This document shows, one piece after another, positions 15,352 through 64,000 of a DNA stretch of 64,000 bases. Under the pieces are notes generated by a model. It did not search any database. It was not told where the DNA came from and saw nothing but the letters and a program-made list of their open reading frames with translations. The DNA lies in assembly GCF_019649055.1 (NCBI RefSeq), contig NW_026570272.1, positions 496,001 to 560,000 of the forward strand, in the 5' to 3' direction. This stretch comes from Paramacrobiotus metropolitanus (taxonomy: Eukaryota > Tardigrada > Eutardigrada > Parachela > Macrobiotidae). Within the stretch, counting starts at the first letter, position 1. Every line of letters begins with the position of its first letter. The position numbers and the translations under genes were made by a program.

Positions 15352-18300
15352 TTATTTTATGTCATTCTGTCCAGCCTTATCAACCGCCTTGTCCAGTACG
15401 TCCGGTGGGACTGTACTGGACTTATCCGATACGTCCGGTAGGACCGTATTGGACTTCTGCTTTTTGCCCTTTGAGACTTTTTCAGATTTTTCCCGTCCCG
15501 TGGTTATACGGGTGAGTAAGTCTTTATCTGCCTCATCATCAGCGACTACGTCCTCTTCAAGGACTTGCTGGGCCGTAAGGGTTGCCTTAGGCTTTTTAGG
15601 CGTTTTTGGTCTTTTGGGCTTCTCTTTGGGCGCCGTGACCACTTTTGGCTCTTTGGTCGCCACTGGCTTATCCGTGACGGATGTCCCTTTTTCTGGTTCC
15701 GCCGGGGCCAAAGTTGGGTCAATGACGGTTAATGGCTGGTTTTGGAGCTTTTGAAGGGCCGGTGTCTCGAAATCCGGTTTGGCCTTTCGAGGTCGGCCTG
15801 GGCCACGCTTTACTGGTGGCGCTGGGTCTGATGTCTTCGGGTCAAGTGGGCCGTAGCCTGAGATTTGCAAAGTCTTTTGCTGCCCCGCCACAAGTTTCTT
15901 GGACGGGCCCTTTCCAGGCTTCTGCTTCTTCAGCAGCTCCTCCAATTTATTCTGGGTGTGTGGGAGCTCTGCGTTTTGTCCCGGCTCTGCCTTGTTGTTG
16001 CACCTTTCCGACTCCGTGGGTTGAGGTTCCGCGTCGCCGCCCTTCTTTTTAGTTGAGCGAGTTATTCTGCGACTCGGACCTTCCGGGTTAAGGTATGGCT
16101 TCAAGCGATCGACACATACAGTGTGTTCCACACCGGTGTCTCGCTCTCGGATCCAGTAAGTGTTCGGCTTGGGTATGCCGATGACGATGTAGACGCCTTC
16201 GAACTTGTTTGGATTGGTCGGGTCGTCTACCATGTTCTTCAGGGTGACCAAGTCCCGCTTTTTGAACTCGGCCTGCGACTTCTTTTTGTTGTAGATGGCC
16301 GCGTACCTGAGGAATCCTTCTTCGATCCGCGTTTTCGCAATTTCATGCGCCCGGTTCAGGCGCTGTTGCATCCTCTTGACGTAACGTTCGTTAGTCGTAA
16401 ATGTTTCTGGGACGTTGGTCCCAGCGAGGACGTCTTGTGGTATGGTCATTTCTCGTCCATATAGCATGTGATATGGCGAGAATCCAGTGGTTGCGTGAAC
16501 GGCACGGTTCATGCCGGAGATCACGTAAGGCAGGGCCCGGTGCCAACGATGTTCGTCGCCGGCGCCGCGAAAATTTCGAATTCCGTCCCAGATCGTTTGC
16601 ATCTGGCGTTCGACTTGGCCTTGGCCCTCTGGGTGATAAGCGGATCCGAAGGTCTGCTCAATGCCGAAGATTTTCGCCACTTTGGCGAAGGATTTCGCCG
16701 TAAAATGCGTGCCCCGGTCGGAGTGCATTGTATGTGGCATGCCGTACTTTAGTACAACTTCTTCGACAAAGAACTTCTCAAATTCTTTGGCCGAGTTTAT
16801 CTTGGTCGGCCGGGCTATGGTGAACTTCGTCATTTGGTCGACCACCACAGCGATGTACCGGTATTTCTTTGTCTGGGTTACCGGTAGAGGTCCTTTGAAG
16901 TCGGCGAAGACGCGGTACCAAGGCGCTACAGCTTCGGTCGGCTGCAGCATACCGTAGGTAGCTCGCCGCGGCACTTTGCCGAAGATACACGTCTGACATC
17001 GGTCGATGTAGTCGTGTATGTCGCAGCTCATACGGTCCCAGTAGTACCTGAGTTTGGCTGATTCATTCGTCTTGCGGTATCCAAAATGGTTCCCTGTTTT
17101 TCCATCATGGAGGGACTGGATAATATTTTTCCGCATGAACAGAGGGACAACGAATCTCCTTTCGAGTTTCGCATTGATTTCGGTGAGTCGGTAGAGCACA
17201 CCTTTGTCCATCTGGTAATGTTCAGGTAATTTGGACCTCTGATCCATTTCGCTTTGATGTTCCAACTCGTGGATTTTCTTGGCCAGAGTTGGGTCGCGAT
17301 GTTGCATCCGTCGCAGTTCTTGCGCGGTGCGGTCCATGACTTTTTCTGGACACGGTGGAACTTCGGGCTCTGGCTCTCCCGGTGTGGGCGCCGGTACATT
17401 GATTACCCGTATGTCCGCCGTGCTAAAATCGTTCCAATCACTGATTGCGTTACAATCAGGAAGGAGAGGCTTGTCCCATTCGTTTGCGGGGTCCTCGTCG
17501 GTTACTTGCAGCCTGCGCACCTTTATGATGCGTGCTGGGATCTCGTCTTTATAATCCTCGAAGTTAGGGACTTGGTCCCACTCTTCGTGTGGGCCTTTGT
17601 CATCGTCCCGTTCGAGTGGCCATCTGGACAAAGCGTCAGCATTGTCACAGAATGTGCCTGGTTTGTACTCAATGGTGATGTCCCGTCCCTGTAAGGCGAG
17701 GGCCCATCGAGTAAGACGAGGGTTGATGCCGGGCCGGTTAGACTCGCATCTGAGCAGGTTGGTTAGGGCTCTATGGTCCGTCCTTACTGTGAAAGGTCCG
17801 TGGTCAATGTAATGCTTAAACTTTTGGACGGCCCATACTACGGCTAAGCATTCCCATTCGGTCACGCCGTAGTTCTTTTCAGCTCCATGTAGGACACGGC
17901 TTGCGTAGGCAATTGGCCTCGAGTCCTGGCTGAGTATGGCTCCGATGCCAGCGCCACTTGCATCACATTCGATGGTGGTCTGCTTGGTCGCATCGAATTT
18001 GGCCAATATTGGGGCTTCCGTTAAGGCCTTTTTGATTTCGTTGAACTCGGCGGTGTGGGCGTCAGTCCAGTCGTTCTTGACCGAGCTTTCCTTCCGCAGG
18101 AGTTCATACATCTTGGAAGTCTTCTGGGCGTAGCCCTGGATGAACGTCCGGTAGTAATTAGCGAGTCCAAGGAACGAGCGAAGTTGGCGCTCGGTCTTGG
18201 GCGGTAGTTTCTCGGCGATGGCCGCTACCTTCTCGGGGTCAGTATGGACACCGTCCTTGCTGAGGATGTGTCCGAGGAATTGGAGTTTTTCCATTCCAAA

Positions 18301-19587
18301 TTCGCATTTCGACGGTTTTATCGTGAACCCGGCATCTCTGAGGCAGAGGAGCGTGTTTCTGAACGCTTTCCTAAATTCCTCGAATGTTTTGCCGAAGAAT
18401 ATCACGTCGTCGATGTATGCGAAGACGCCGCCTTGTTTGCGGGCCGGCGCCATAATCCTGTCTATAGTCATTTGGAATGTGGCTGGCCCATTGCAGACGC
18501 CAAACGGCATTCGTTTGAACCGGAACATCCCTTCTGGAGTCACGAAGGTAGTGTAGTCCATGGACGCTGGGTCCATAGGGATTTGCCAGAATCCGGACTG
18601 ACAGTCTACCTTGCCGTAGTAGGCGTTTCCTGCACATTGATCCAGAAGTTCGTCTGGATTGGGCAATGGGTAATTGTTCTTCTTGGTCACCGTGTTCAGC
18701 TTTATATAGTTTATGCAGAACCTGGTGCCCATGGTCCCGTCGTTGTTTTTCTTCGAAGCGAGGACCACTGGAAAACTCCACGCTGCCATGGACGGTTCAA
18801 TCACGCCTTGGTCCAACATTTCCTGGACGTGCTTATTAATGAACTCTCGTCCCTTCCAACTCGTTCGGGTTGGGTTCATTTTGATCGGTGCAGCGTCGCC
18901 AACTTCTATGACGTGGGTCACTCCTTTGACGTCGCCGTAAGGCTTTTTGGACGTCGGGAATATGGCCCTGAGTTCCCATAAGTCCTGACGGAGTAGAGCG
19001 GTCTGCTCCTCGGTCAGGTGGTCGCCAAAATGTGCGTTGGCGATGTGGGCGCGGATTTCACGCTCCACTTCTGGATCTTCCTCTGCGGTTTGGAGGGAGT
19101 TGATCTTGGCGTAATCTTCGTCCGAGATTTCCTCGTATGGCTCCACTTGGCCCATGTTGACTCCTTTCCGGAGTATATGGGGCTCTTTGGAGTAGTTTGA
19201 CACCAGTATGGTGAAACTAGTGCCATCATGCTGGACTGGTCCGTCGAGCATGGCCAGACTCCGTTTGGTGTCTTGGCTTCCGAGGTACATAAGTTTCTGT
19301 CTTGGGTCGACAGGGTAGTCAATGCTAACTTGGACCGGGGTAATGGACTCCGGTGGGAGTTCCACTTTTACAGTTGCCCGGACCATAGCATGGTCATTAA
19401 TGGTGCGGTACCGATTTGGATTATTCCCTGCCACTTTTGGCCATGGTAAGGCGTCGGCATTGGGAATTGACCAATCTACGCCATCCTCCTTGATGTCTGG
19501 CTCATAAATGTCGCTATAGTACAATCTTTGCACCTTTGCGGAGGATTTGGTCGCGTCGGGACTTGTTTTGGACCTGGATCCACGCAT
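15352..19587 (-). CDS. pol: Pol: reverse transcriptase, RNase H and integrase
   Basis: A frame of 1,411 codons. Residues about 90-150 are a small beta domain ending EPHILRKGVNMGQVEP. The RT spans about 215-400, with SGFWQIPM, the FGVCNGPATFQ region and the catalytic YIDD at about 391-394. RNase H follows (ECDASGAG, RTDHRAL) at about 540-610. Integrase begins with an H-C zinc region (HFGYRKTNESAKLRYYW, CQTC), followed by the catalytic triad in FADFKG, HSDRGTHF and the E of GQGQVERQ. A short barrel-like segment (WIRERDTGVEHTVCVDRLKP) is followed by a Lys/Pro-rich tail of about 230 residues with an AT-hook-like KRGPGRPRKAK. The enzyme copies element RNA into DNA and inserts it into chromosomes. 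The frame overlaps the ORF at 19514-20443 by 74 bp in the +1 frame. The catalytic residues appear intact. Confidence 0.9.
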   Translation of the reverse strand: MRGSRSKTSPDATKSSAKVQRLYYSDIYEPDIKEDGVDWSIPNADALPWPKVAGNNPNRYRTINDHAMVRATVKVELPPESITPVQVSIDYPVDPRQKLMYLGSQDTKRSLAMLDGPVQHDGTSFTILVSNYSKEPHILRKGVNMGQVEPYEEISDEDYAKINSLQTAEEDPEVEREIRAHIANAHFGDHLTEEQTALLRQDLWELRAIFPTSKKPYGDVKGVTHVIEVGDAAPIKMNPTRTSWKGREFINKHVQEMLDQGVIEPSMAAWSFPVVLASKKNNDGTMGTRFCINYIKLNTVTKKNNYPLPNPDELLDQCAGNAYYGKVDCQSGFWQIPMDPASMDYTTFVTPEGMFRFKRMPFGVCNGPATFQMTIDRIMAPARKQGGVFAYIDDVIFFGKTFEEFRKAFRNTLLCLRDAGFTIKPSKCEFGMEKLQFLGHILSKDGVHTDPEKVAAIAEKLPPKTERQLRSFLGLANYYRTFIQGYAQKTSKMYELLRKESSVKNDWTDAHTAEFNEIKKALTEAPILAKFDATKQTTIECDASGAGIGAILSQDSRPIAYASRVLHGAEKNYGVTEWECLAVVWAVQKFKHYIDHGPFTVRTDHRALTNLLRCESNRPGINPRLTRWALALQGRDITIEYKPGTFCDNADALSRWPLERDDDKGPHEEWDQVPNFEDYKDEIPARIIKVRRLQVTDEDPANEWDKPLLPDCNAISDWNDFSTADIRVINVPAPTPGEPEPEVPPCPEKVMDRTAQELRRMQHRDPTLAKKIHELEHQSEMDQRSKLPEHYQMDKGVLYRLTEINAKLERRFVVPLFMRKNIIQSLHDGKTGNHFGYRKTNESAKLRYYWDRMSCDIHDYIDRCQTCIFGKVPRRATYGMLQPTEAVAPWYRVFADFKGPLPVTQTKKYRYIAVVVDQMTKFTIARPTKINSAKEFEKFFVEEVVLKYGMPHTMHSDRGTHFTAKSFAKVAKIFGIEQTFGSAYHPEGQGQVERQMQTIWDGIRNFRGAGDEHRWHRALPYVISGMNRAVHATTGFSPYHMLYGREMTIPQDVLAGTNVPETFTTNERYVKRMQQRLNRAHEIAKTRIEEGFLRYAAIYNKKKSQAEFKKRDLVTLKNMVDDPTNPNKFEGVYIVIGIPKPNTYWIRERDTGVEHTVCVDRLKPYLNPEGPSRRITRSTKKKGGDAEPQPTESERCNNKAEPGQNAELPHTQNKLEELLKKQKPGKGPSKKLVAGQQKTLQISGYGPLDPKTSDPAPPVKRGPGRPRKAKPDFETPALQKLQNQPLTVIDPTLAPAEPEKGTSVTDKPVATKEPKVVTAPKEKPKRPKTPKKPKATLTAQQVLEEDVVADDEADKDLLTRITTGREKSEKVSKGKKQKSNTVLPDVSDKSSTVPPDVLDKAVDKAGQNDIK

Positions 19588-58484: not shown

Positions 58485-60275
58485 ATGATACCCAGCCGAA
58501 AGCTCAAAGGCAGTCGTCCCGCTCCTACAGTGATCTGGCTTTTCGGTCGTTGCACTCACTGTTCGCAGTAACAGAGAGTGTAGAGCATTTGCGATTAGAT
58601 AGTCCAATCAGGTAGAACAAACATTATAATTATTGTACGAAGAATAATCCAGAAGTTAAGGCTTGTTTATCTCACATAACCGCATGTTTGTTATTCTTCA
58701 GGTATTAGCTGTAAAGTCTACAGGTATTTGAAGTACCAGATTAGAAAATCGTTTGCTCTTGGAATGCAAATTGTAAACGAAATAACAATAATTGAATTAA
58801 TTTGATTCGTAAAAGCAAAGGATTAGCAGCTACCATGGGAATAGGGTGCGGCCAAACAAATTTAAGGTAGAAGACACTACACTGTAGTCTGTAGCCAATG
58901 CGCTGTAATATGCTACTTTAGGAGACTAATGTGCGGTCGATAAGTATTTTCTTTTTAGTGTGCATGTGAAACGAGGTTAAAACAAAAATTTCTGATTGTT
59001 TTAATAGAAAAATATCGGTACGTAACACGAACAGACAGTTTCCACTATATATAGCAGTAGTAATGCGATACTACATAAGTAGATATGACTCATCAAATAT
59101 TAAAAATGGCGTCGGTTACGTCAAAAACTGGAGTTGGGAACTGGACTTTCTAGTTACAATTCCCGGTTGGACTTTATGACTACAGCTCCCAACTGTAGCA
59201 TATGATTCAGCACAACTGCAGCATATGATTACTGCATATGTATACTGTATAGAAGTGCACTACCTAATTTACACACTTCCTGATATTCACACACAAGTTG
59301 TTTACATTCTTTTACCGCGTGGAGCGGCACTAGCATATTAACGCAACTGGCTCGCCAGCGATGGTGCTGCATACTATGCGCGTCTCTTAATTATTGAAAA
59401 CACTTGTAGTAATGCTGTGCACTTGTAATATACATAATTATTTGCCAACTTACCGAGTAGTTTAATTGCTTATCTGGATTGTGCACGACTTGGATATAAC
59501 TGCGAAACTCGACATGTGCCCAGTGTACTGTATGGATACTACTGTACACTGCACAGTTATATTGGTTCACTTTCACTGTTTGGTTCAACAAGTTGTTTAC
59601 ATTTTTTTACACTATGGAGGAGCACTTTAACGCATCAGGCTCGTCAAAGCCTTTCAACGTACAGTAAGTTAAAAATAATTGCTTTTTAGTGGATATTACT
59701 AGTTCCTCTATTCTCAGCTTATTTATACATAAATAATCATAAAAACTAACAGGTACGATGGAATATTATTTTCTTTATCACTGTACATTATGACTGTAGT
59801 GTGTAATCAATTTTGACAGTTATTTGCAGTCTTATGGTCTATTGCGTGCATGCTTATGCGTACGTACAGATCAACTGGAAAAAGTCCGCCAGGGTCGCCG
59901 CAAATTTTTTTCCACTGGAGCTAAAGGTGCATTTCTATTAACGATTACTCCGCTAATTGCAGAATTTATGAATTTCTTGTACACGAAGTAATTGAAGCTA
60001 AGGTTTTTAGTTCATACTGTGTTGGAACACATGGTATATTTTTTATGTGTACATAGTTTCGGGGATGCTACAAGCAACGAGGGCTCGAGTAGAAAAAGTT
60101 GGCCTGAACTTCTCAAAGATTTTTTCCACCTTGTCAACGGTATGGCGTAATTTGCTGATTTCGCAGTTTTTATATTACAGAAATTATTATTATATGCTTG
60201 TATGTTAGATCAATGCTTTTATAACAAAAAATACATTTCGTAATGAACCCTAGGTATCATAATTAATGATCAATG
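58485..60275. other. Intergenic or left part of the Polinton; no gene seen
   Basis: AT-rich, without a supported gene. A phrase beginning AGTTGTTTACATTCTTTTA (59296) recurs about 295 bp on (59590) with the following CTAGCA/ACGCA...GGCTCG context. This may be a direct repeat of the element's end region, but I could not locate the terminal inverted repeat. Confidence 0.4.
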
Positions 60276-60472: not shown

Positions 60473-61000
60473 TTAGTTTCCTAATAACAAGCGCAATTCG
60501 TTTTCAGCAGTTTGAAGAGTATTAGCATCCTTTGCATTTAATAAATTAATTTTTCCAGAATGGAAAATCATCGCCGTACAACCTTGAAGCCGGACTCGCA
60601 TGGCCGGAAATATTTCAGGTTCAAACATGGCATCAGCTTTTGCTCTTATTGGGTTGTACAATTTCTCTAAACTAAGAAATTTCCCAAAATTAAAAGTGGC
60701 GACAATGTTAACAATTCGTGGATTCTTTAACGATGCTTTTTGATAGCCATATTTTTGCAGTTTCCGGTAATAGTGATCCAATAACGCGAGAGCATCACTG
60801 ATGGACTTTGCACCATTAACTGTGATCTTGCCGTTGCGGTACACTTGGCAGTGCGATTTGTAAGGACGAACGGAACGGAGAAGAAGCCCGGAAAATTTAT
60901 GCGGTGCATAATGAGAAAGCGGAGCGCGTTCGGATAAGCTGGGTAAGTCAATTGCGCAGCCAAGGTCAGCAGTTGCAACAACGTTAGTTATTTTCGCCAT
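60473..61000 (-). CDS. TATA-binding-protein-like protein of the Polinton
   Basis: A gene of 175 codons from ATG at 60998-61000. It is the length of a bare TBP core and has the same two-repeat plan. Repeat 1 (about 3-85): ITNVVATADLGCAIDLPSL, HKFSGLLLRSVRPYKSH, YRNGKITVNGAKS. Repeat 2 (about 92-175): RIVNIVATFNFGKFLSLE, FEPEIFPAMRVR, MIFHSGKINLLNAKD. Compared with eukaryotic TBP, phenylalanines stand at three of the four DNA-kinking positions (HKF, EIF, MIF) and tyrosine at the fourth (VYRNGK). The protein would bind promoter DNA in the nucleus. Its ATG overlaps the end of the upstream gene by 17 bp, so the two probably share a transcript. It is too divergent to be a recent copy of a host TBP. 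Confidence 0.85.
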   Translation of the reverse strand: MAKITNVVATADLGCAIDLPSLSERAPLSHYAPHKFSGLLLRSVRPYKSHCQVYRNGKITVNGAKSISDALALLDHYYRKLQKYGYQKASLKNPRIVNIVATFNFGKFLSLEKLYNPIRAKADAMFEPEIFPAMRVRLQGCTAMIFHSGKINLLNAKDANTLQTAENELRLLLGN

Positions 61001-61482: not shown

Positions 61483-62178
61483 ATGGATTCCTTAAATAGG
61501 TATCCGCGCACGACAGCTGATTTGAGATTCCGACTACCCGCTTCGGTCCTTGTTGTGGGGCCAACGACTTCGGGGAAAACGACGTATGTGTCAAAATTAA
61601 TTATGGAGCGCGATAAATTATTTGACCAACCATTTGGAAGAATTATTTTGGTGTACGGAGAAATGCAGCCAGCCTACGAAATGCTTCAGCGCAGAGTACC
61701 TGGGATTGAACTGACAAAAAATATTCAACAAATTGTGGAGGATGAAATTTATTTTGATGGTAAACAAAATATTTTGTTGATACTGGATGACGTGGCAAGC
61801 GGTTTGGTGAAAAACAAGCATTTATCTAAACTCTTCACTCAAAAAGTACACCATAAACGGCTTTGTGTATTTTTATTATTCAATAACCTATATAAACAAG
61901 GGTCTGCTATGCGAGACGTGCATCTTAATGCGCAGTATCTTATACTGTTTAAAAATAATCGTGATGTGAACCAAATCAAGATTCTAGAAAGGCAGACTGG
62001 TTTAAAACATCTCAGCGGGGCTTACGAAGAAATCGGCCAGGAACCATTTCAACCTCTCATTTTGGATATGAAACCGGACACACCTGCCTATTTAAGGATT
62101 CGTTCAGCAATATTACCGGGAGAGTTGACTAAAATTTACATCAATCCACATACGACAAACTTGCCCAAGAATGTGTGA
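61483..62178 (+). CDS. Viral-type genome-packaging ATPase (A32/FtsK-HerA-like)
   Basis: The first ATG of the frame is at 61483, giving 231 residues. Walker A is VGPTTSGKTTYVSKLI near the N-terminus and Walker B is NILLILDDVASG around residue 103. A sensor-like HKRLCVFLLFNNLYKQG lies at about 125-141, and MRDVHLNAQYLILFKNNRD follows. The size and motif order are those of the short packaging ATPases of Polintons, adintoviruses and related DNA viruses. The enzyme would pump the element's DNA into capsids in an ATP-dependent way. Its end overlaps the next ATG by 8 bp. Key residues are intact. Confidence 0.9.
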   Translation: MDSLNRYPRTTADLRFRLPASVLVVGPTTSGKTTYVSKLIMERDKLFDQPFGRIILVYGEMQPAYEMLQRRVPGIELTKNIQQIVEDEIYFDGKQNILLILDDVASGLVKNKHLSKLFTQKVHHKRLCVFLLFNNLYKQGSAMRDVHLNAQYLILFKNNRDVNQIKILERQTGLKHLSGAYEEIGQEPFQPLILDMKPDTPAYLRIRSAILPGELTKIYINPHTTNLPKNV

Positions 62179-62500
62179 TCAGATTTTAAAAGACTTTGCA
62201 CCGTTTCTCCTTACCCTGCGATCGCTGAAACCCAAGCAGCGTCGTTTTCTTTTGGAAAATATTTCGAAACGACAACTTCGCTGTTTTGAAGAAATTTGTT
62301 TGAATTTGGTGAAGAATTCAGTGCCTCTTACCACCGATCAGCTCAAGGTGTGTCAGCGTTGGCGTCGACCATTAAAGCTGATTGCCCTCAAAAAATATCC
62401 TTTACGAAGCAAGAGGGAAATTTTATTACAGCGCGGAGGATTCTTACCTGCGGTTCTACCTGTATTGGCAGCTGTTTTGGGAACTGCTTTACTGAAATGA
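62171..62500 (+). CDS. Small basic protein with hydrophobic C-terminus (pX-like)
   Basis: 109 codons. The N-terminal two-thirds is Leu/Arg/Lys-rich and helical (LTLRSLKPKQRRFLLENISK). The C-terminus is basic then hydrophobic (LLQRGGFLPAVLPVLAAVLG). This basic plus GGFLPxLLPxL-type tail occurs in small virion proteins of Polinton/adintovirus genomes that have been compared with adenovirus pX. A DNA-condensing or membrane-active minor virion protein is the likely role by analogy. It overlaps the ATPase upstream (8 bp) and the next gene (ATGA). Confidence 0.7.
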   Translation: MCDQILKDFAPFLLTLRSLKPKQRRFLLENISKRQLRCFEEICLNLVKNSVPLTTDQLKVCQRWRRPLKLIALKKYPLRSKREILLQRGGFLPAVLPVLAAVLGTALLK

Positions 62501-62994
62501 AACCGGAAGTGCATTATATTGTTCCCGCGAGCGAAATGAAAAGACTTGCAAGTGACACGGTTGGTCGTATTGTAACGGATGTCCAATTACAACAGCAGCC
62601 TACTGAAGTTGTAGATATTGTAAAACTGGATGATTTGATGAGAGATATAATTTCACGGAATACGCTCAGCGAATGGGAGAAAGCGGAACTGTTATCAAGA
62701 AACTTGGCTCGCTTTTTGGCGCTGAAAAAGTCGGCGTTTGGCCCTGACCAAATGGTTATTCCGCCTCCAGCATTTGTGCCCCCAATTCCAGTACAACTAT
62801 TAAAGAAGCCGTGGGTACCCCCTAATATGCCTGATCGTATGTTAGATGCTTTCCCTCCTATTCCACCTGCACCCCCGGCAAAACGCAAGCGTGCAAAGCG
62901 AGAAGTATTTGATGAAAACACTTTACAAATCGAAGGTCCCATCGGTTCAAGAACCAAATCTCAGCTCAACTGGATGACTATAAATAACAAATGA
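62497..62994 (+). CDS. Polinton small protein, helical and proline-rich
   Basis: 165 codons from the ATG at 62497 that overlaps the previous stop (ATGA). A longer open frame upstream has no good start and duplicates the previous gene. Residues about 45-80 (LMRDIISRNTLSEWEKAELL, then LARFLALKK) form a predicted helical pair seen in short proteins next to Maverick integrases. A Pro-rich stretch follows (VIPPPAFVPPIPVQLLKKPW), then a basic segment (PAKRKRAKREV) that could be a nuclear signal. The end reads TKSQLNWMTI. No enzyme motif is visible; a virion or assembly factor is a guess. Confidence 0.65.
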   Translation: MKPEVHYIVPASEMKRLASDTVGRIVTDVQLQQQPTEVVDIVKLDDLMRDIISRNTLSEWEKAELLSRNLARFLALKKSAFGPDQMVIPPPAFVPPIPVQLLKKPWVPPNMPDRMLDAFPPIPPAPPAKRKRAKREVFDENTLQIEGPIGSRTKSQLNWMTINNK

Positions 62995-63066: not shown

Positions 63067-64000
63067 ATGGATCAAGCAGTAGCGACGACGAACACGATGG
63101 CCAATCTACTGCTACGACAAGCGTACCTGAACCCTCTGCACCCGGGCAGCTTAGCGGGGATTCAAGAGTTTCGCAACCACTTTCCACAAGCACCAAACTA
63201 TCAACAAACGCGGGAACAGCTGGAACATCTGGATCCATATACAGTCCACAAATCTCGACGCAAAAAATTCAAAAGAAACCCCGTAGTTGTCTCAAACCTA
63301 CTGGAGCAATATCAAGCCGATCTGGCAGACATGTCAAAATATGCGAAGCAGAACAAAGGATACCGTTGGATATTGTTTGTGATCGACGTCTTCAGCAAGA
63401 AAGTTAGCTGTCAACTACTAAAGAATAAAAGCGGTCCAGAAGTAAAACTTGGTCTGGAAAAAGTGTTTGCAGAACTCGGAGCTCCAATTAAATTACAAAC
63501 TGACAAAGGTCTTGAATTTTACAATAAGGATGTTAAGAATTTTTTGACGGCCCAAAAGGTTTTCTTGTTCTCTTCTGAAAATAAAGCAATCAAAGCATCT
63601 CTAGCTGAAAATGGCATACGCAATCTCAAGAAACGCATATGGAAATTATTTCAACACCGACAGTCTAAAGTGTACTGGGACGTTTTAGGCGATTTGGTAA
63701 ACAGTTACAACAACGCAATTCATTCTTCGCATAAAGTCACGCCTAATGAGGTTACCCAGTCCAGTTCTCTGCAAATATTCAATCGACTATATGCAGAATT
63801 ATTATTGGGAAAACAGAAAAAGCCAAAGTACAGCGTAGGTGACACAGTACGAGTAGCCATCGACAAAACACTTTTTGAAAAAGGATATGAGTCAACATTT
63901 AAGGAGGAAATTTACAAGATACACCAAGTATTACCACAACAGCCAGAGCCCCTCTACGTATTACTGGATGAAGACGGGGACTTACTTCGCGGGAAATATT
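63067..64000 (+). CDS. int: Polinton retroviral-type integrase (rve), continues past the window
   Basis: This frame is not closed within the window. The first ATG after an upstream TGA (63037-63039) is at 63067, and the frame stays open to base 64000, 311 codons. The catalytic core begins YQADLADMSKYAKQNKGYRW. The second acid is in LQTDKGLEF and the glutamate in IKASLAENGIRNLKKRIW, with 34 residues between them, so the D,D,E triad is complete. SYNNAIHSSHKVTPNEV and a C-terminal beta region (YSVGDTVRVAI) follow. The enzyme would insert the element's DNA into the host genome. It overlaps a different-frame ORF starting at 62991 that I take to be spurious. Confidence 0.9.
   Translation, partial: MDQAVATTNTMANLLLRQAYLNPLHPGSLAGIQEFRNHFPQAPNYQQTREQLEHLDPYTVHKSRRKKFKRNPVVVSNLLEQYQADLADMSKYAKQNKGYRWILFVIDVFSKKVSCQLLKNKSGPEVKLGLEKVFAELGAPIKLQTDKGLEFYNKDVKNFLTAQKVFLFSSENKAIKASLAENGIRNLKKRIWKLFQHRQSKVYWDVLGDLVNSYNNAIHSSHKVTPNEVTQSSSLQIFNRLYAELLLGKQKKPKYSVGDTVRVAIDKTLFEKGYESTFKEEIYKIHQVLPQQPEPLYVLLDEDGDLLRGKY

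Follow-up and report, generated by a model that had tools for sequence, protein, structure and literature searches.

A TATA-binding protein carried by Polintons of a tardigrade, with a remodelled DNA-contact surface and a conserved TATT-type motif as its candidate target

A gene for a TATA-binding protein (TBP), best read as a member of an old, element-specific lineage, is carried by a Polinton of the tardigrade Paramacrobiotus metropolitanus. The identity of the protein, its place inside the element, the constraint on its lineage, a set of fixed changes in its DNA-contact surface and the conservation of a TATT-type motif are observed in the window (i.e. the whole 64,000-nucleotide stretch of DNA that was analysed) and in related loci. 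Because the surface is remodelled and the motif is conserved upstream of element genes, a role at the element's own promoters is supported, and the protein would, somewhat probably, direct host polymerase II to TATT-type promoters, in a manner convergent with the late transcription of herpesviruses.

To our knowledge, the control of Polinton genes has been little studied. An element-encoded TBP whose DNA surface is switched, together with a conserved TATT-type motif, offers a testable answer to the question of how these genes are controlled, and the elements may switch their genes by a system of their own.

The element and its genes

The hallmarks of Polintons (Mavericks) are terminal inverted repeats (TIRs), a 6-bp target-site duplication (TSD), an integrase, a packaging ATPase, a protease and a PolB. 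The element of the window is 14,356 bp long, from window position 59056 to C52:569411 (window coordinate 73411), and extends 9.4 kb beyond the end of the window; its left and right ends align over 123 bp with 87.8% identity. Being bounded by the TIRs and the TSD, it encloses the TBP gene, which is located 1.4 kb within it (table 1). Besides the integrase, it encodes an adenovirus-type protease (Peptidase_C5, E=2.9e-5, above the cut-off) and a PolB of organellar/viral type (DNA_pol_B_2, E=2.3e-17, at positions 7628-8494 of L021, a stretch of the same element), the PolB region consisting of several separate open frames. The element is therefore like a Polinton/Maverick in its TIRs, 6-bp TSD, integrase, protease and PolB, while the match of its ATPase to Pox_A32 (E=1.9e-4, 21.4 bits) is below the Pfam cut-off of 22.8; among the scanned ORFs of the element, there were zero Pfam capsid matches, a double jelly-roll capsid gene being a further Polinton trait. 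Compared with the Polintons/Mavericks of animals, the TBP is an extra gene of the tardigrade element. Stretches homologous to the 232-aa ORF that follows pX are present in two other loci (L032 and L034).

Elsewhere in the window (5355-25891, minus strand), a very long array like an LTR-type retroelement with a strong AT skew includes a pol ORF (15352-19587, with reverse transcriptase, RNase H and integrase), an ORF for an aspartyl protease and two ORFs of 1278 aa and 2213 aa, the latter an extra one that has no Pfam match at E 0.01.

Table 1. Features of the TBP-bearing end of the Polinton, in window coordinates.
Feature	Position	Strand	Evidence or remark
Left target-site duplication TATAGC, 6 bp	59050..59055	.	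right copy after C52:569411, outside the window
Left terminal inverted repeat, starts AGTAGTAATGCG	59056..59177	+	alignment with the right end of the element
TBP homologue, 175 aa, two TBP lobes	60473..61000	-	ATG to stop; Pfam, PDB, AlphaFold2
g152 gene, 152 aa	60984..61442	-	upstream of TBP, overlapping
A32-like packaging ATPase	61483..62178	+	Pox_A32
TATTTAAGG	61490..61498	-	56 nt (first base) before the g152 ATG
TATTTAAGG within ATPase codons Y-L-R	62089..62097	+	82 nt (first base) before the pX ATG
pX-like gene	62171..62500	+	Adeno_PX E=2.4e-4, below the Pfam cut-off
232-aa ORF, TTG start	62296..62994	+	no Pfam match
Retroviral-type integrase	63067..64000, continues beyond the window	+	rve E=4e-8, above the cut-off

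Identity and fold of the protein

The Pfam TBP profile (PF00352) matches the ORF in two stretches with 120.8 bits (E=2.2e-35), the curated cut-off being 22.9 bits, and the top matches of a PDB sequence search were the TBP chains 1mp9 and 1tbp (E=3.8e-18 to 6e-18), which we take to be the TBPs of Sulfolobus and yeast. The AlphaFold2 model, built from an 18-sequence alignment, is confident (pLDDT 96.5, pTM 0.87) and has the strand/helix order of TBP, repeated twice, in agreement with the saddle fold of the family.

An earlier, sequence-only reading of this DNA had proposed a two-repeat TBP carried by a Polinton, and both parts of that observation are confirmed: the core plan by the profile, PDB and model results, and the residence of the gene in the element by the TIRs and TSD that enclose it. 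The segments NGAKS, FEPEIFP and MIFHSGK are found at the places where it had put them, and its count of three out of the four intercalating phenylalanines is correct, because in the alignment with yeast TBP (34% identity) F99, F190 and F207 are retained and only F116 is replaced, by Tyr. The 17-bp overlap that it had noticed with the neighbouring ORF corresponds to positions 60984-61000, and this ORF (g152) is indeed divergent from the packaging ATPase.

Outside the close relatives of the window's gene, all 12 divergent TBP places whose surroundings were read (29-46% identical to the window TBP) adjoin Polinton genes. In arrangement (a) the TBP gene is beside the ATPase (L032, L034, L037-L040), and in arrangement (b) it is beside the protease (L029-L031, L033, L035, L036), with PolB on the other flank in both loci that reach far enough (L035, L036).

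The DNA-contact surface

The Polinton TBPs fall into two classes, a main one and a distant one. Five cellular TBPs served as the reference (those of the host, of yeast and of Sulfolobus, and two archaeal-looking database proteins), and 46 aligned positions are invariant across them. In the main-class set of 51 sequences (21 of our own and 30 from databases, with P0036, P0038 and nine distant rows omitted), six of these 46 positions have changed to another residue, which is fixed to at least 95% (50-51 of 51), namely L114Q, F116Y, V122T, T124N, V213N and T215L. All six are among the DNA-contact positions of Table 1 of PMC12529657, and 15 of the 46 invariant positions are on that list (hypergeometric 5e-4). 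The DNA-contact surface of the main class is thus remodelled in a fixed way.

Other residues of functional interest are largely kept. The intercalating phenylalanines are found in 50 (F99), 51 (F190) and 51 (F207) of the 51 sequences, position 116 being Tyr in all of them, and the minor-groove asparagines N69 and N159 are retained in 50 or 51. Of the two glutamates that contact TFIIB, E188 is present in 50 main-class TBPs and E186 in only 19, the window TBP carrying both. The likeness to cellular TBPs, therefore, lies in the two lobes, the two asparagines, the three phenylalanines and E188, and the difference in the six fixed DNA-contact changes. Some changes of the surface are not towards polar residues (e.g. 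T215L, and Val at position 205 in 46 of 51), and Thr is found at position 203 in 42 of 51. The nine distant rows have Q114 and L215 like the main class, with F116 and V213 mostly unchanged.

The substitutions of altered-specificity yeast TBP are, reportedly, I194F, V203T and L205V. The Polinton TBP is a candidate for a natural TBP of altered specificity. In the portion of a review that deals with such variants, three second-repeat substitutions are said to make TBP read TGTAAA (PMC10005294).

A conserved TATT-type motif

The two copies of TATTTAAGG in the window's element (table 1) precede g152 and pX, respectively. Of 20 near copies of the locus (counting that of the window), 19 have the motif before pX and 16 have it before g152, where L015, L016, L018 and L019 lack it. 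Five main-class ATPase-side stretches contain nine occurrences against 0.5 expected, with the qualification that two of them come from the window itself, i.e. the discovery site, and that L032 and L034 are closely related. There are none in the part of the window that lies outside the element (27 kb, 0.3 expected), in the protease-side stretches of arrangement (b) (0.4 expected) or in the distant class (0.2 expected), and the shorter TATTTAAG occurs twice against 2.1 expected in the protease-side stretches, with no excess. Since there is no excess of either motif on the protease side, the TBP gene itself would be without it in arrangement (b). Most genes of the window's element also have no such motif, as no TATTTAAGG-type sequence is found in the 9.4 kb of L021.

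From the listed ATPase places, 20 ATPase ends were picked, 15 with Y-L-R and five of the distant class; the former, together with the window, L032, L034 and L037, make up 19 Y-L-R elements, or 13 lineages when six near relatives are dropped by eye. Y-L-R is encoded by TATTTAAG[G/A] in 14 of the 19 elements, and this sequence is found upstream of pX in 10 of the 13 lineages, where 0.027 per element would be expected from codon use in nine genes of the window's element. In all 13 motif-bearing elements with a called pX ORF, it is situated 74-86 nt before the pX ATG. The commonest 9-mer at Y-L-R is shared by nine of the 13 lineages, as compared with at most four at any other tested offset; the neighbouring R-S-H is conserved in 11 of the 13, yet the commonest 9-mer there is found in just three. 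Mean nucleotide identity directly upstream of the motif is 0.59, and Y-L-R opens with TAT, not TAC, in all but one of the 13 lineages, the two codons being about equally used in the window's element. From these comparisons, the evidence for a DNA signal inside the coding sequence of the ATPase is strong.

The motif is absent at pX in L070, L072/L074 and L080/L081 despite the presence of Polinton TBPs nearby, and none of the five distant-class ATPase ends has TATTTAAG at the corresponding place; a distant-class locus, L083, has TATTTAAA 196 nt before the pX ATG. A further sequence, TATTAAAG, is found 3' of the pX start in L081 (at 101 bp) and L082 (at 137 bp), and also in L080 and L037, and might serve the following gene as a second site of TATT type.

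Other candidate signals were tried and set aside: the canonical TATA box, TATAAA, is not enriched (104 occurrences, 108.4 expected), AAGGTCA, although enriched, occurs in the control stretch too, and the enrichment of GTAACCAC comes from repeats in clusters, most of them in L034 and L029. These GTAACCAC-based repeats are located beside Polinton genes, at L034:4722-7961 and L029:7604-8390.

The motif is taken here as a core promoter that would be read by the TBP of the element. Canonical TBPs may tolerate TATTTAA, so the host TBP might read it as well. The most serious competing explanation, which we regard as unlikely, is that TATTTAAGG is a splice or trans-splice acceptor (TTTAAG/G) producing a separate pX message, the TBP being an unrelated general activator. 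Such a function would suit a motif within coding DNA, upstream of an internal gene of a compact element, and trans-splicing has been reported in tardigrades; however, an acceptor would not need TAT over TAC, AAG acceptors are disfavoured, and the same nine bases precede g152 on the opposite strand in most of the near copies.

Proposed mechanism and comparison with known systems

Returning to the motif as a core promoter, we infer the binding, the partner, the polymerase and the timing as follows. The Polinton TBP would bend TATTTAAGG-type DNA and recruit host TFIIB through its kept stirrup, by which host RNA polymerase II would be brought to pX; in the window's family, the g152-TBP gene pair would, in addition, be switched on by its own TBP in a feedback. 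No element-borne TFIIB was found: the six TFIIB-family matches in the genome fall in three places, on contigs C28, C45 and C100, none of which carries a listed TBP place.

The closest parallel is offered by KSHV ORF24 and HCMV UL87, described as the TBP mimics of the late pre-initiation complex of beta- and gammaherpesviruses (PMC12529657, PMC8360532), and the polar surface of ORF24 is suggested by its authors to reflect TATTWAA promoters (PMC12529657). ORF24 shares with the Polinton TBP changes at positions 114, 122, 124, 205, 213 and 215, mostly to polar residues and with T124N identical, whereas T215L and L205V of the Polinton TBP are not polar. At position 116, ORF24 retains the Phe that is Tyr in the Polinton TBP, and at 161 its Val is replaced by Asn, the Polinton TBP having V or I there; the TFIIB-contact glutamates are absent from ORF24, while the Polinton TBP keeps E188; and ORF24 comprises several domains (with residues numbered to 752) and acts together with five further viral proteins, whereas the Polinton TBP consists of nothing but a core of 175 aa. 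The late complex of the herpesviruses also contains ORF18, 30, 31, 34 and 66. Both systems would use a TATT-type core, i.e. TATTWAA in the herpesviruses and TATTTAAGG, as the sequence presumably bound, in the Polinton, and the reliance on host polymerase II that the cited parts report as shown for the herpesviruses would also hold for the Polinton TBP. The likeness that we would claim is one of mechanism, not of descent. If the pairing of protein and motif is true, two unrelated groups of DNA viruses reached the same solution for late transcription via the same TBP positions.

In the passages of PMC7221094 that deal with them, the TBPs of giant DNA viruses and poxviruses are described as having conserved phenylalanines and diverged partner surfaces, and orthogonal TBP systems are proposed. 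The Polinton TBP is like them in being of dsDNA-virus type, with three of the four phenylalanines conserved and the partner surfaces diverged; the same passages state that, poxviruses apart, almost all of those viruses encode a TFIIB-like protein (PMC7221094), whereas none borne by the element was found with the Polintons. TBPs of large dsDNA viruses are also described in PMC11410667, and TBPs in elements of putative mirusvirus origin are mentioned in PMC10675990. The terms TATA, TBP and transcription factor are absent from the main text of a survey of vertebrate Mavericks (PMC8097293), and no printed description of a Polinton TBP was found in the accessible text of open PMC papers.

In its widest form, which we advance tentatively and at slightly less than an even chance, the proposal is that animal Polintons have an orthogonal initiation system, in which the surface of the TBP co-evolved with a TATTTAAGG core promoter while TFIIB and polymerase II come from the host, the herpesvirus TBP/TATT switch thus having been reinvented independently in a 14-kb element. 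It is improbable that the element TBP acts instead on the host, competing with or replacing host TBP at host promoters: with its three DNA-bending phenylalanines and E188 it could join host initiation complexes, yet the six fixed DNA-contact changes are expected to weaken the recognition of canonical TATA, and the basic positions 138, 145 and 151 of the N-lobe (for TFIIA and regulators) are poorly kept.

The neighbouring gene g152

The product of g152 probably works with the TBP, because the two genes overlap, co-occur in most of the places read and sometimes share a frame. Matches to g152 adjoin the TBP gene in eight of the 12 divergent places (none in L037-L040), and the two are joined in one open frame in L035 (355 aa from ATG) and L045 (403 codons, stop to stop). 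Only two relatives of g152 were found; one of them, P0041, and the TBP relative P0020 come from contigs of 1,728 bases both, perhaps the same contig. A second ORF of the window's element (L021:4216-4764) is 27% identical to g152. The predicted structure of g152 (pLDDT 83.8) has, in our reading, a strand/helix order like that of an RNase H-like fold; family and profile searches with g152 gave weak, mixed matches only and did not confirm this fold.

Bacterial RNase HIII joins a TBP-like lobe to RNase H. The TBP and g152 might, by analogy, form a replication or nuclease module rather than a transcription factor, an idea to which the predicted RNase H-like order, the sharing of one frame in two families and the proximity of the pair to PolB in L035 and L036 lend something. 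We consider it quite doubtful, given that the protein is a full two-lobe TBP with E188 and not a single lobe, and that no Pfam or PDB sequence match backs a nuclease activity of g152.

Recurrence, lineage and selection

In a genome search with the window TBP, the best 150 of 301 candidates were scored, so that the counts given here are lower bounds; 133 of the 150 matched rows have no internal stop, some being partial and a few being pieces of one place. When merged with 22 further rows, they give at least 169 TBP-like places besides the canonical host TBP, and at least 115 of these lie no more than 20 kb from an ATPase place on the list. Conversely, 144 ATPase places were checked, and for at least 111 of them a TBP place is located within 20 kb; considering the TBP places listed, it is within 2.5 kb in 62 and at 6-9 kb in 46, whereas random placement would leave about 2% of ATPase places with a TBP within 10 kb. 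The other 33 include contig ends and spots possibly missing from the TBP list. In the top 20 rows, identity to the window TBP is 75-100%, and at least one of g152, ATPase and pX is visible in 19 of these 20 near loci (the exception being L019). With well over a hundred TBP-like places, one small animal genome provides many natural variants of TBP and promoter for comparison.

Two of the divergent places, L038 and L039 (C36:629000-647500), form a 2,786-bp inverted duplication, 99.5% identical, which contains the TBP, ATPase and pX genes; the duplicates are about 11 kb apart and are apparently both ends of one Polinton. Similar inverted TBP pairs are also listed on C1, C13 and C218. As a separate observation, at least 88 HSP70-family matches, many of them exon pieces, are present in the tardigrade genome, with clusters on C13, C72 and C45.

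Among the genome matches listed, there is one canonical TBP (C4:406204-406638), which is 80% identical to yeast TBP over the last 145 of the 158 query residues. At this locus (L061, C4:406 kb) a frame change is apparent near the N-terminal lobe, due to either a very short intron or an assembly error.

In the protein database, 40 TBP relatives were found among 106 candidates, with 30-52% identity; they come mostly from ENA, JGI and similar sets, and one is a protein of the mite Dinothrombium tinctorium (P0036). In IMG/VR, no relative was found with any of four queries, namely the TBP and the ATPase of the window, the host TBP and an alignment of 12 Polinton-type TBPs, and PHROGs gave no significant match. 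A tree was computed from 67 rows, i.e. 27 of our own (a choice out of 52), 37 database proteins (all of the 40 that reach 160 aa) and three references. In it the host TBP groups with yeast TBP (100/99), away from the Polinton TBPs, in a cellular clade with a support of 99/93 (five rows) or 99/96 when the mite protein is included, and our 27 Polinton TBPs are all outside this clade, in a topology of which the bootstrap is not settled and the root is arbitrary, and which fits one or two origins of Polinton TBPs equally.

The Polinton TBP families differ from each other in more than half of their residues. The lineage has mostly undergone more synonymous than non-synonymous change: the mean pN/pS is 0.32 over 17 near copies (136 pairs, which are not independent), and dN/dS is 0.09-0.46 in 11 of 12 other TBP pairs, the 12th being saturated. 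The pair L001/L002 has one synonymous and seven non-synonymous differences, a pattern that could be expected for a recent copy under little selection.

That the gene is a recent retrocopy of the host TBP sitting in one element, which the sequence-only reading had named as the outcome that would overturn its proposal, has practically no probability and is refuted, since, even if the near copies are single open frames while the host gene is apparently split, the host TBP is placed with yeast, the families are as divergent as stated, and the gene recurs with the same kinds of neighbours in many copies, beside Polinton genes genome-wide.

Two further divergent TBPs, L088 (C19:805300-807500) and L089 (C201:97700-99650), are found near ATPase places and were kept outside the tree; the former matches the Pfam TBP profile with E=1.2e-22. 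Both have long C-terminal extensions, which by eye look acidic, with repeated Asp-rich Phe/Trp motifs, in the manner of acidic activation domains.
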